From contig DATJZY010000118.1 in the NCBI GenBank assembly GCA_035577985.1, positions 1 through 64,000 on the forward strand: a stretch of 64,000 nucleotides of DNA, written 5' to 3'. The position numbers were made by a program, and so were the translations under genes. The DNA comes from Candidatus Eisenbacteria bacterium. GTDB lineage: Bacteria; Desulfobacterota; Binatia; DP-6. This document shows, one piece after another, positions 1 to 27,020 of this stretch. The first letter of the stretch is position 1. Every line of letters begins with the position of its first letter. The notes under the pieces are model-generated. The model was not told the origin of the DNA and did no database searches. It saw nothing but the letters and a program-made list of their open reading frames with translations.

Positions 1-28
1 CCAAACCCAACCAGATCATGCTTTTCAT
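1..28 (-). CDS. Start of an unidentified gene running off the left edge
   Basis: On the minus strand an ATG at 28 opens a frame reading MKSMIWLGL before the window ends. A strong Shine-Dalgarno stretch (GGAGGAG, near 35-41) sits about seven bases upstream. The basic-then-hydrophobic opening resembles a signal peptide or membrane anchor. Only nine codons are visible, so no function can be given. The good ribosome site is the main reason to believe it is a real start. Confidence 0.45.
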
Positions 29-288
29 GGCCGGCTCCTCCGTATGCGGCTCTAGCCGCGGGTGGCGAGACTCCCGAGACTAATCCGCGAACGTGCGGAT
101 GTGAGCCGGCCGTTCATTTGGTCTTAGTTCGCCGCGCGGCGTCCGGGACGCGTCGAGCGTCGCAACGACGGAACGCCGCGCGGCTCAAGGGCGCTCCGCC
201 CTCGCCACCCGCCCCGCGCATCGCCGCCGCATTCATCACCTACGCTATTGGCGGGTGCGATCGTGACGGCGAGGCGGCGGCGTCGCGT
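29..288. other. Intergenic region, no credible gene
   Basis: This stretch would hold the promoter of the gene leaving the left edge. Short frames exist on both strands, but they are low-complexity Arg/Ala/Pro translations of GC-rich DNA without good ribosome sites. It contains a 12-bp inverted repeat at 131-184 and a small hairpin at 188-202 (AGGGCG, loop CTC, CGCCCT). I saw no convincing -35/-10 or -24/-12 promoter. Confidence 0.5.
131..184. repeat. 12-bp inverted repeat with 30-bp spacer
   Basis: GCCGCGCGGCGT at 131-142 is matched exactly by its reverse complement at 173-184. The arms can form a long stem. No second copy was found in the window, so it may simply be local structure in GC-rich DNA. 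Confidence 0.5.
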
Positions 289-411
289 CGCGAGGTTGGG
301 GGCAGGGCGGAGGCGCCTGCGAAGCGGCGCGACGGAATGTCTGGGCCGTGGCGCCCTGCATGTTTTCCCGCGCGGCGGAGCCGAAGCCGAAGCCCTGCCC
401 CCAACCTCGCG
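289..411. repeat. Long hairpin intergenic element, copy A
   Basis: A perfect 20-bp stem (289-308 pairing with 392-411) encloses an 83-base loop that contains the internal palindrome AGGCGCCT. The same architecture, with the same 20-bp stem and 83-base loop lengths and clear loop similarity, recurs inverted at 26215-26337. The two stems differ at several positions, yet each difference is matched on the opposite arm. The element lies 14 bases beyond the stop codon of the pyrophosphatase gene and could act as its terminator, or be a non-autonomous mobile repeat. Confidence 0.85.
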
Positions 412-425
412 GCACCGAGCTAGAC

Positions 426-1046
426 TCAGCGGCTCGAGAACCCCGCCTCGTAGTCAGCGATCGAAGCCCCGATGACCTCGTGCGCCGCTGCCACCCCATA
501 GACGTGGGTGATCTCGCAGCGCCTCGGGGCGCTCGGGTCGGGGATGTCCTTGTAGGTGAGGAAGTAGTGCCGCAGCCGGTCGACGAGCGCCGACGGCACG
601 TCGGGCAGGTCGCGGAAGCCGCCGTACGCAGCGTCGTCGGCGAGCACGGCGAGGATCTTGTCGTCGGCCTCGCCGCGATCGAGCAGCAGGAACCCGCCGA
701 TGGGGCGGGCGCGGACCAGAATCGCGCCGTGCGTGATCGGGCGCTCGGTCAGCACGCAGATGTCGAGCGGGTCGCCGTCGCCGACGATGCCGCTGCGGCC
801 GGTACGCCGCGAGGCGAGCGCGCCGACGCGCTCCTTGCACCACGTCCGCGGCACGAAGCCGTACGGCGCCGGGCAGACGTTCGAGAACTGCTGCGGGCGA
901 TCGAGCTTCAGGTGTCCCGTCGCCTTGTCGATCTCGTACTTGACCGTGTCCGAGGGCACGATCTCGATGAACACGTTCATGATCGCCGGCGCCTCGTCGC
1001 CACGCGAGATGCCGTGCCACGGATGGGCCTGGAGCCGTAGCGTCAT
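426..1046 (-). CDS. ppa: Inorganic pyrophosphatase (soluble family I)
   Basis: The 206-residue product hydrolyses pyrophosphate to phosphate in the cytoplasm, pulling biosynthetic reactions forward. It begins LQAHPWHGIS followed by a beta-strand IEIVPSDTVKYEID, typical of the family I N-terminus, and carries the metal-binding signature DGDPLDICVL around residues 90-99. A methionine 22 codons downstream is possible, but the HPWHG segment belongs to the family, so the first start is kept. It is divergent from the metal ATPase gene with about 50 bp between starts. A structured repeat lies just past its stop. Confidence 0.93.
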   Translation of the reverse strand: MTLRLQAHPWHGISRGDEAPAIMNVFIEIVPSDTVKYEIDKATGHLKLDRPQQFSNVCPAPYGFVPRTWCKERVGALASRRTGRSGIVGDGDPLDICVLTERPITHGAILVRARPIGGFLLLDRGEADDKILAVLADDAAYGGFRDLPDVPSALVDRLRHYFLTYKDIPDPSAPRRCEITHVYGVAAAHEVIGASIADYEAGFSSR

Positions 1047-23288: not shown

Positions 23289-26198
23289 ATGCGATCCAGG
23301 ACGGATCTCCGCGCGATCGGAGCGATCGTGCTCGTGCTGCTCATGAAGGCGGCGACTGCACGCGCGACGGTTGCCACCGATCTCTGCACCCCCACGGCGG
23401 ATCCGTGCGTGGTGAACACGACGATTCCGGTCACGACCGGCTCGACGATCGACCTCGGCACGCGCGCGCTCGAAATCGGCGCGCAAGGTACGCTCGACGT
23501 CGGATCGGGCACGGTCCTCATCCAGGCGGGCACGGTTCGTCTCCTCCCGGGCTCCAAGATCCTCGGTCGCAATACGACGGCCGGCGGCTCCATCACGATC
23601 GTCGCGAGCGGCTCGATCGACATCCAGGCGAGTGGTCCCAGCAAGGGGCGGATCGACGTCACGAGCGAAGGCGACGACGGCGTCATCACGCTGCAGGCGG
23701 CGGGCGACGTCACGGTAGCGGGCCAGCTCCTCGCCGTCGGAGCCGACCAGTTCGCGAGCGGAGGCGGCGTCACCATTCTCGCCGGCGGCTCGATCCTCGT
23801 CACGCCGTCCGGGGACGTCAGCGTCGCGGGGGGAAGCCAGGCCGAGGGCGGCGACATCCTGCTCGACGCCGGGGGCGGGATCGATCTGCAGAACATCATC
23901 GATGCCTCGGGCGGCGACTTCGGCGGCGGCACCGTCGATCTCTCGGCGGACGGCGGCGACGTGATCGTCCGGCAGCAGCTGAACGTTCCGGGCGGCGGAT
24001 TCTCGGGCGACGGCGGCGAGGTGACGATCGACGCCGGCGGATCGGTCCAGGTGCTCGCGGCGATCGACGGCCACGCGGCGGGCGATAGCGAGGACGGTTC
24101 GGGATCGGGCGGCGACGTCGACATCCGCGCGCAGCAGTCGATCACGATCTCGGGCACGCTCTCGCTCACGGCCGCGCCGCCGGACGGCGAGGGCGGCAGC
24201 GTGTCGCTCGAGGCCGGGACCACCATCACGGTCGGTGCAGCGCTCCTGGTCGAAGGGCAGGGGATCGACGGGTGCGGTGGCTCGATCATGGTGAACGCGG
24301 GCGCAGCGGTGACGCTCGACCGCATCACTGCCAACGGCGGGTCGTGCGGCGGTGGCGACGTGACCGTGCAGGCGCTCGGCGATCTCGCCGTGCCGCAGAT
24401 CATCAACGCGGACGGCGCGAGCTTCGGCCCCGGAGGCACGATCGTTCTCGACGGGCGCAACGTGCAGGTCTCGAGCACGGTCCGCGCGGCGTCGAGCGAC
24501 GCCGACGGCGGGAGCATCCTCGTCGAGGGGTGCAACGTCGGTATCGGCGGGGCGGCCGAGCTGCGGACGATCGGCATCGGCGGGAGCAACGCGATCCACG
24601 CCAGCGGGCAGGCGACGATCAACGGAGATCTGCTATCGTCGGTGGGATCCGTCCCCGGCACGAATCGCATCGCCTATCGCAACATCGCGCTACCACCCAT
24701 CGTCGCGGGGGCGACGATCTCCCCGCCCGCGCTGCAGGCGGTCGACGCGATGCTGCCGCCCTGTCCGGCGGCGGGGGCGGTCTGCGGCGACGGCACGGTG
24801 GACGCGGGCGAGCAATGCGACGACGGCAACAACGTCGCGTGCGACGGCTGCTCCTCCGCCTGTCGCAGTGAAGGGTGCGGGAACGCCCACCTCGAGTGCG
24901 GCGAGCAGTGCGACAACGGGCCGGCCAACGGCACGCCGGGCAACGCGTGCGCGGCCGACTGCACCATCATTCCGACGGCTGGCGGCGTGCAGTCGATCCC
25001 CGGCGGACACGGCACGACGGCATGTCAGGTGGAATGGGAGGTCACGAACCCGGGCGGCGAGGTGATCGACGGGTTCCCGTCGACCGAGCAGCGGTGCATC
25101 GACGGCGATCCGGGTTGCGATCGCGACGAGGCCGACGACGGCACGTGCACGTTCGACGTCGCCGTCTGCCTGGCGGCGAACGACACGCGGATCGGGGGCT
25201 GCCAGCCGACCGGGCTCCAGTACTTCACCCTGCAGAAGCCGAACCTGCTGACGGCGACCGATCCGATCGACGTCGCGAGCGGGACGCGGATTCGCGACGC
25301 CGTCGCCGCGCTCGGCGTCCAGGTGCGCGTCGGCTCCAACGTCATCGTGCCGGGCGCGCCGATCGCCGGGCGCGATCTCTGCACGGCGCCGCTGGCCATC
25401 GCCGTCCCGCACGGCGCGGGCGTCGTGGGAAGTCGCCGCATCGAAGCGGCGTCGCGCGACCTCGCGGGCAGCCGCATGCGCCGCAACACGGTCGACCTCA
25501 TCTGCGCGCCGAATCCGTCGGTGTGCGGCAACGGCATCGTCGAGATCGCGGAGCAGTGTGACGACGGGAACAACGTGTCCTGCGACGGCTGCACGCCCAC
25601 CTGCCGGCGCGAGGTCTGCGGCGACGGCATCGTCGAGTGCGGCGAGCAGTGTGACGAAGGCCCCTCGAACGGGACGCCGGAGAGCCAGTGCACGGCGACG
25701 TGCACCGAGAAGGTGCCGCCGCTTCGCATCGCCGGAGGCGGATCGCCGGCGCTCGACTGCCTGGTCGAGTACGCCCTCAACACGACGGCGCCGACCCTCG
25801 ATCGCGCCGGCCGGCCGTCGAAGAAGCAGGACTGCGTCGACAACGATCCCGCCTGCGACCTCGATCCGACCGTCGGCAGCTGCCGGTTCAAGGGCTGGGT
25901 CTGCGTCGGCGGCGCCGATCCGCGCATCGCGTGCCCCGCCCAGACCGTCGCCTCGCTCGAGCTGATGAAGCCGAGCCTCCGCGACGTGGGCCCGCTGGCG
26001 GCGCTGCGCACGGCGGCGCAGCAGCGGCTTTCCGCGATCGCACTCCCCGCCGCCGGCGGCGAGGTCTGCACGCAACGCATCGACATCAGCATGCCCGCGG
26101 GTCGCCGCCCCCTGACTCTTTCGGTCAAAGGCCGCGACCTCCTCGGCAAATCCGATCGCGACACGCTGAAGGTCCGCTGCCTCGCGCCGCCGACGTAA
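23289..26198 (+). CDS. Giant secreted beta-helix / disulfide-repeat protein with a duplicated C-terminal domain
   Basis: A 969-residue exported protein. After the signal peptide comes an N-terminal segment paralogous to the 12120 protein (GSTIDLGTRALEIG, TLDVGSGTVLIQAGTVRLLP), then a Gly/Asp-rich beta-helix to about residue 490. Two blocks of disulfide repeats (CGDGTVDAGEQCDDGN, CGNGIVEIAEQCDDGN) each precede one copy of a 150-165 residue domain. Copy 1 spans about residues 577-738 (CQVEWEV to DLICAP) and copy 2 about 823-969 (CLVEYAL to VRCLAPP). Both share Cys-x-Val-Glu, DPxCDxD, a KPxL segment and a final Arg-Asp-Leu region. It ends 16 bp before the hairpin element at 26215. Confidence 0.86.
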   Translation: MRSRTDLRAIGAIVLVLLMKAATARATVATDLCTPTADPCVVNTTIPVTTGSTIDLGTRALEIGAQGTLDVGSGTVLIQAGTVRLLPGSKILGRNTTAGGSITIVASGSIDIQASGPSKGRIDVTSEGDDGVITLQAAGDVTVAGQLLAVGADQFASGGGVTILAGGSILVTPSGDVSVAGGSQAEGGDILLDAGGGIDLQNIIDASGGDFGGGTVDLSADGGDVIVRQQLNVPGGGFSGDGGEVTIDAGGSVQVLAAIDGHAAGDSEDGSGSGGDVDIRAQQSITISGTLSLTAAPPDGEGGSVSLEAGTTITVGAALLVEGQGIDGCGGSIMVNAGAAVTLDRITANGGSCGGGDVTVQALGDLAVPQIINADGASFGPGGTIVLDGRNVQVSSTVRAASSDADGGSILVEGCNVGIGGAAELRTIGIGGSNAIHASGQATINGDLLSSVGSVPGTNRIAYRNIALPPIVAGATISPPALQAVDAMLPPCPAAGAVCGDGTVDAGEQCDDGNNVACDGCSSACRSEGCGNAHLECGEQCDNGPANGTPGNACAADCTIIPTAGGVQSIPGGHGTTACQVEWEVTNPGGEVIDGFPSTEQRCIDGDPGCDRDEADDGTCTFDVAVCLAANDTRIGGCQPTGLQYFTLQKPNLLTATDPIDVASGTRIRDAVAALGVQVRVGSNVIVPGAPIAGRDLCTAPLAIAVPHGAGVVGSRRIEAASRDLAGSRMRRNTVDLICAPNPSVCGNGIVEIAEQCDDGNNVSCDGCTPTCRREVCGDGIVECGEQCDEGPSNGTPESQCTATCTEKVPPLRIAGGGSPALDCLVEYALNTTAPTLDRAGRPSKKQDCVDNDPACDLDPTVGSCRFKGWVCVGGADPRIACPAQTVASLELMKPSLRDVGPLAALRTAAQQRLSAIALPAAGGEVCTQRIDISMPAGRRPLTLSVKGRDLLGKSDRDTLKVRCLAPPT

Positions 26199-26214: not shown

Positions 26215-26337
26215 CGCGAGGTCGGGGGCGCGGTTTCGGCTTCGGCTCCGCCCGCGCGACAACACACGCCGCGCGTCACGGTCCCACATCTCGTCGCGCC
26301 GCTTCGGAGGCGCCTCCACCGCGCCCCCGACCTCGCG
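26215..26337. repeat. Long hairpin intergenic element, copy B
   Basis: A perfect 20-bp stem (26215-26234 with 26318-26337) surrounds an 83-base loop. Read on the minus strand it aligns along its whole length with 289-411. Shared blocks include GGAGGCGCCT, CGAAGCGGCGCGACG and CGGAGCCGAAGCCGAA. The stem bases that differ from copy A do so in pairs. It fills most of the gap between two convergent genes. Confidence 0.88.
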
Positions 26338-26363: not shown

Positions 26364-27020
26364 CTAGCGCTTCAGCGGGGTGCCGTATTGGTCGAGGAAC
26401 GCGACGTCTTCGAGGGGGCGGCGGCGGGTGGGGCCGAAGCGGTCTTGGGGGTGGCCGAGCGGGACCAGAGCGACGGGCTCGAGCGTGTCGGGCAGGGCGA
26501 GCAGTGCCCGGAGATCGCTCTCGAAGGCTCGATGCAGCGTCGTGAGCGTCGTGCCGAGGCCGAGGGCGCGTGCCGCGAGGAGGAGGTTCTGCACGGCCGG
26601 GAAGATCGACGCGTAGGCTGCGGCCGGCGATCTGAGGCCACCGGCGCCGTCGGCGATGGGGCCGAGGCGGGTATGATCGAGACAGCAGACGATCAGCACC
26701 GGTGCGACGCCGATCGTGCGCGAGAGCTCGGCGGCGCCGCGCATCATGCGGGCGTAGTGCGGTGTGTGCTTGAGGTCGCGGTCGGCGTCCGCCTGCGCGG
26801 TGAACCGCTCGGCGGCCTCCCACGCCTGGCGATAGTGCCGCCCGATCGCGGCGCGTAGCTCCGGCTTCCGGACCACGACGAAGGCCCATGGCTCGGCTCC
26901 GCGCGCCGACGGGGCGCGCGTGGCGGCGGCGAGGACGCGCTCGACGAGATCGTCGGAGACCGGGTCGGGTCGCAGGCGCCGGATGGCGCGCTGCGTGTCG
27001 ACGACGTCGAAGAAGTCCAC
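26364..27020 (-). CDS. Nitroreductase-family flavoprotein
   Basis: A 218-residue protein with the FMN-binding opening TQRAIRRLRPDPVSDDLV and ATRAPSARGAEPWAFVVV, and the dimer-region LLLAARALGLGTTLTTL. These FMN enzymes reduce nitro groups, quinones or enones with NAD(P)H, or dehalogenate. The substrate is not predictable. The thiolase gene lies ten bases upstream in the same direction, so they may share a transcript. Confidence 0.9.
   Translation of the reverse strand: MDFFDVVDTQRAIRRLRPDPVSDDLVERVLAAATRAPSARGAEPWAFVVVRKPELRAAIGRHYRQAWEAAERFTAQADADRDLKHTPHYARMMRGAAELSRTIGVAPVLIVCCLDHTRLGPIADGAGGLRSPAAAYASIFPAVQNLLLAARALGLGTTLTTLHRAFESDLRALLALPDTLEPVALVPLGHPQDRFGPTRRRPLEDVAFLDQYGTPLKR

Follow-up and report, generated by a model that had tools for sequence, protein, structure and literature searches.

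The hairpin elements described here lie in a 64,000-nucleotide stretch of DNA, the window, taken from a contig of a Candidatus Eisenbacteria bacterium. Two hairpins of the same type (F1) follow closely on the 3' ends of genes, and the first of them is accompanied by the remnant of a related hairpin (F3) into which other DNA has been inserted. The features concerned are:

1–122, minus strand: end of a multicopy insert; at three sites it splits F3, each time at one and the same base
123–229, minus strand: F3 hairpin remnant, GGAGCGCCCTTGAGCCGCGC...GCGCGGCGAACTAAG, interrupted after CTAAG by the insert
289–411, plus strand: F1 hairpin copy 1, arms 289–308 and 392–411, covariance model score 152.6 bits for 275–425
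309–334 and 369–391: conserved junction blocks of copy 1, GGAGGCGCCTGCGAAGCGGCGCGACG and CGCGCGGCGGAGCCGAAGCCGAA, with the variable terminal loop between them
426–1046, minus strand: gene, stop codon 14 nt from the right end of copy 1, inorganic pyrophosphatase-like by eye
23328–26198, plus strand: gene, stop codon 16 nt from the right end of copy 2
26215–26337, minus strand: F1 hairpin copy 2, arms 26215–26234 and 26318–26337, 137.5 bits, between two convergent genes
26364–27020, minus strand: convergent neighbour gene with its stop codon 26 nt beyond the left end of copy 2; by eye it resembles a nitroreductase

Both copies measure 123 nt, with perfect stems of 20 bp and loops of 83 nt, at exactly the positions given in the original prediction, and the stop codons listed above agree with its placement of both just beyond gene 3' ends. 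Compared in the same orientation, the copies are identical at 85 of the 123 positions, and all differences in the stem are matched pairs, as had been claimed. The predicted fold is very stable, at about -85 kcal/mol. An F1 copy on contig C100 probably represents the same site as copy 1, the right flank being common to both. Near-identical F1 cores at contig ends (C100/C118 and C31/C92) were taken as assembly overlaps or chimeras.

Copies, relatives and placement of the hairpin

The genome to which the window belongs (G000; 5.70 Mb, 191 contigs, a 99.5% complete MAG) contains scattered F1 hairpin repeats of roughly 123 bases each, about 40 of which are found by BLAST with E-values down to 1e-56. 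The original prediction had proposed a covariance model search of the same and related genomes; in the window's own genome, a model built from 30 copies detects about 57 places, corresponding to about 56 copies, a few of them cut by contig ends, so that the window pair does not stand alone and the repetition goes far past what chance would produce. The order of parts is an outer stem of about 20 bp, GGAGGCGCCTGCGAAGCGGCGCGACG, a variable terminal loop, CGCGCGGCGGAGCCGAAGCCGAA and the other arm of the outer stem. The inner blocks are almost invariant, and the outer stem and the terminal loop are variable, with F1 ends that are CGCGAGG/CCTCGCG-like. Even the closest copies differ by 3–13 changes in the loop of about 82 nt, and their stems nearly always differ too, which argues against a recent burst of copying and against identical recent duplicates devoid of covariation. 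One remnant on contig C132 (L087:1576-1658) has kept an intact stem (CAAGGCGAGGTCGGGGGCAGGGC) and has lost most of its loop.

A second type, F2, surfaced when a divergent match was used for searching. It is present in about 20 copies in G004, a genome from the same bacterial family but a different genus, in a few copies in G003 and G006, and three times in G000. Its stems are mostly 21–28 bp long, mostly flawless and unlike one another, with variable, G+C-rich ends. Since the F2 model matches F1 copies with E-values down to 3e-7, the two types are homologous. The third type, F3, occurs at about ten places in G000, several of them cut by contig ends, and has CGAACTAAGC as its 3' junction block. 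Direct sequence comparison reveals that all three types share a 5' junction AGCGCC or GGCGCC and a 3' junction of the CGAAGC type. F1, F2 and F3 thus form one superfamily with a unit length of 112–126 nt and stems of mostly 20–28 bp.

This superfamily is essentially restricted to one bacterial family, within which the copy number spans about 56 to 0. Among 148 genomes of the class, matches are confined to this family except for one weak match in G100, which is also the only match outside the family in searches of approximately 540 genomes. A search of 395 genomes from the phylum returned G000 as the sole match under strict filters that also missed a weak match in G001. An exact-core scan for F1 in 84,980 species genomes gave ten single matches in unrelated organisms, which were judged to be due to chance, and no Rfam family scored over its gathering threshold. 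The genomes are mostly metagenome-type draft assemblies, and the window's genus is represented by one genome.

For the gene context, genes were called from codon usage with the window as the training set, and the calls look right at both window sites. A gene 3' end lies within 60 nt on the right of F1 in 35 of the 42 copies for which both neighbours were called, and 19 of these 35 also have a gene 3' end on the left. For copies with a 3' end nearby on one side only, the right side is used 16 times and the left side twice (two-sided P 0.0013). The distance from the right end to the stop codon is usually 5–40 nt, and on the left it is often 9–50 nt. None of the copies is inside a called gene; 31 of the 42 lie between convergent genes and three between divergent genes, as compared to 6 convergent gaps among the 47 in the window. 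Most F2 copies in other genera are placed in the same way, with a stop usually 4–39 nt to the right. Where two elements share one convergent gap, they usually take one gene end each (L091, L071, L103, L115). Gene-end placement could reflect the survival of harmless copies rather than targeting, but the orientation bias argues against this.

Stem pairing and the strand concerned

The covariation noted between the window copies is real across about 50 copies, and a folded form that matters is likewise supported. On an unfitted MAFFT alignment of F1, 12 pairs have changed on both sides, giving 52 double-changed cells against 11.3 in shuffled alignments; no shuffle reached 52, and slid controls gave 2–10 cells. 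For F2, 18 of the 22 outer pairs have two-sided changes, and the 69 double-changed cells (15.5 in shuffles) exceed every shuffle and slid control. In the outer stems of 53 F1 copies taken together, 1109 pairs are Watson-Crick and 32 are mismatched, of which 14 are G·T, 3 are A·C and 15 are of other kinds; there are also 8 gaps, and 27 of the 53 stems are flawless.

Several observations bear on how the arms have remained matched. Insertions occur at the same place in both F1 arms (e.g. L010, L061, L067:2808, L078), and in four copies the stem runs into the flanks by at least 5 extra, copy-specific base pairs, against 0.64 copies with re-paired flanks (P 0.0008); the longest of these extensions, taken alone, is not significant (P 0.09). 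In copy L089, the right half includes 13 nt that repeat the left inner block as its reverse complement. Template switching between hairpin arms is a described mechanism that leaves such footprints (PMC8794818). The matched indels and arm-to-arm copies point to templated correction at the DNA level as part of the cause of the covariation. It follows that covariation alone is no proof of selection on the fold, so that of the original claim, that covariation implies selection or a mechanism for the folded form, the covariation and the importance of the fold are supported.

In the orientation used here, the element is complementary in strand to the mRNA of the right-hand gene, which makes it possible to ask which strand bears the constraint. 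In element orientation, i.e. in the strand opposite the mRNA, the wobble mismatches of F1 comprise 14 G·T and 3 A·C (P 0.013 against equality). Conserved loop columns have the opposite mutational tendency, with 42 changes that would make A·C and 21 that would make G·T, and given this tendency a ratio of 14:3 is far less likely (P 5e-5). These counts are low, and because some events are common to related copies, the number of independent cases is lower still. F2 gives 9 against 1 in the same direction, but the stem finder used there penalised G·T less, so F1 provides the cleaner test. Furthermore, judged from the sequence, G·A pairs in tandem could form at the inner junction only in the strand opposite the mRNA. 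The wobble bias and these possible G·A pairs make it more likely that the constrained fold is that of the strand opposite the mRNA rather than that of an mRNA hairpin.

Possible nature of the elements

REPs occur in two superfamilies, GTAG and CGTC; most of them lie downstream of genes and between convergent or same-direction genes, and insertion sequences use them as targets (PMC3733652, PMC1525189). With REPs and REPINs that are associated with a RAYT, the present elements share the dispersed palindromes downstream of genes, the occurrence of several families per lineage, inverted pairs and the targeting by insertion sequences. However, REPs of the GTAG type are 20–40 nt long with stems of 5–13 bp, whereas here the units are 112–126 nt with stems of about 20 bp, and an invariant GTAG-type tetranucleotide outside the stem is lacking. 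The original prediction had also suggested a repeat of the REP/RAYT kind, with a Y1-type transposase gene to be sought elsewhere. No match to the Y1 transposase family (PF01797) was found in G000 at E ≤ 1, while E. coli and other controls do match, and relatives with 7–12 Y1 matches (G002, G005, G006) carry one or two elements each at the most. A RAYT as the mobiliser is therefore not supported, and neither is, in its strict sense, this part of the prediction. The CGTC-tagged REPs resemble the present elements in that no dedicated transposase is known and in the T directly before the stem of about half of the F1 copies, often reading CGT ahead of the stem and C as its first base; they differ by their 8–9-bp stems and 4–5-nt loops, the tag being far from invariant here.

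ERIC and similar sequences are intergenic palindromes or MITEs of about 120 bp that are lineage-restricted and non-autonomous. The likeness thus extends to size, intergenic position, palindromic nature, restriction to a lineage and non-autonomy. No target duplication was visible by eye in the flanks, no conserved terminal repeat was seen, and no autonomous partner emerged in the course of the analysis. The elements differ from this group because the sequence of the outer stem varies while pairing is kept, and because their orientation after stops is strict. F1–F3 look like a new REP-like family with unusually large repeats. We have not filed them as REPs, since the ecology is common to both but size, tags and transposase differ.

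We consider it about evenly balanced that F1–F3 are non-autonomous REP/ERIC-like hairpin repeats which have spread in one fixed orientation to positions a few nucleotides beyond stop codons, with little activity in recent times. The DNA strand that is complementary to the mRNA of the upstream gene would, when single, fold into a long hairpin, and this folded strand may be the form that is recognised during copying of the element, by analogy with REP and IS200/IS605-type systems. Recognition would then depend on the conserved inner blocks, and the outer stem would require pairing but no particular sequence; template switching between the arms during replication would, along with selection for the fold, keep the arms matched. 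An inserted hairpin may in addition form a barrier at transcript 3' ends or a two-way terminator between convergent genes. Movement of the elements is something that we infer, as no target-site duplication (none was visible by eye in the F1 flanks), no near-identical copies and no empty site were seen, with one genome available for the genus, and no candidate for the mobilising enzyme was found. A more specific version, in which the folded strand opposite the mRNA is recognised by a structure-specific enzyme other than Y1 that places new copies at gene 3' ends in fixed orientation and needs a paired stem of any sequence as well as the conserved internal junction, appears rather unlikely.

It is possible, though on balance we doubt it, that the hairpins are primarily cis-acting RNA elements, i.e. 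large terminators without U-tract or 3'-end stabilisers, often working in two directions, which are kept by selection and copied by ordinary recombination. The very stable predicted fold, the stops mostly 6–43 nt to the right and often 9–50 nt to the left, the position of 31 out of 42 copies between convergent genes, and the pairs of elements that usually divide the two gene ends of one gap among them would all suit such a function, and a strong GC hairpin shortly after a stop codon is what intrinsic terminators have as well. However, about 1% of the genes have an element and other convergent pairs in the window lack one; the window copies carry no U-tract, and their 83-nt loops contain conserved blocks. 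A search for terminator-like sites at the element ends in the window gave none, and one short internal match was found in copy 2. Moreover, if read on the mRNA strand, the mismatches would be 14 A·C and 3 G·U, the opposite of what selection on RNA would leave, and the possible tandem G·A junction pairs occur only in the other strand. Of the terminator reading in the original prediction, the position at gene ends thus fits, and the missing U-tract and the wobble bias do not. A terminator or 3'-end role, possibly alongside a mobile-repeat nature, is plausible.

The matched stems might also be mainly mutational in origin, with arms homogenised by replication template switching under little or no selection, in which case the elements would be old, inert relics. 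Such switching is described for hairpins (PMC8794818) and would explain the matched indels, the multi-base matched changes and the stems that differ even between the closest copies. We nevertheless regard this as improbable, because junction blocks that are nearly invariant over about 50 copies and recognisable across F1–F3 need constraint, and because the wobble asymmetry is strand-specific. Finally, folded attC-like sites after stops, moved in fixed orientation by an integron-type tyrosine recombinase, would resemble the elements in their orientation, in the conservation of structure over sequence and in the folding of the strand opposite the coding strand, and within one F3 copy there is an insert that resembles a cassette, with GTTGGAC and an end similar to attC. 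But F1 and F2 ends lack the core sites RYYYAAC/GTTRRRY, arrays are absent, the neighbours are mostly convergent genes, and the element-richest genomes, G000 and G004, have no integron integrase over the family cut-off, such integrases being found in the relatives G001, G002 and G005. This possibility is disfavoured and seems highly improbable.

About 75 related hairpins are available in which the stem sequence is free but its pairing is not, and which combine a strand-specific wobble signature with fixed placement after stops. They make testable how arms are matched in long palindromes and how palindromic repeats lacking a RAYT spread to gene ends.

Pairs with F1 and insertions into F3

F3 is nearly always found 60–250 nt to the left of F1 and inverted relative to it (contigs C118, C126, C45, C136, C181, C176 and C133), with spacers that are unrelated from site to site. 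A composite F1-F3 element was rejected in view of these spacers, and because at least one pair consists of hairpins that each serve the end of a different convergent gene.

The insert at window positions 1–122 splits F3 after CTAAG, and the same base was hit on contigs C136 and C133. It contains a reading frame that starts with MKSMIWLGL and resembles the N-terminus of an IS110-type transposase, an assignment that is putative. IS110 elements target REP palindromes (PMC1525189). An IS110 copy on contig C75 was considered as the source and rejected, as it does not carry the insert sequence. At another site, L004 on contig C176 (approximately 1815-2430), an insert of 567 bp, which has the hallmarks of an integron cassette and two small open frames, interrupts F3; it has GTTGGAC at one end and GTCTAACCCGCGCTTGCAGCGGAC..GCCGCTGAACCGCC at the other, and it entered F3 at G^TTCGCC.
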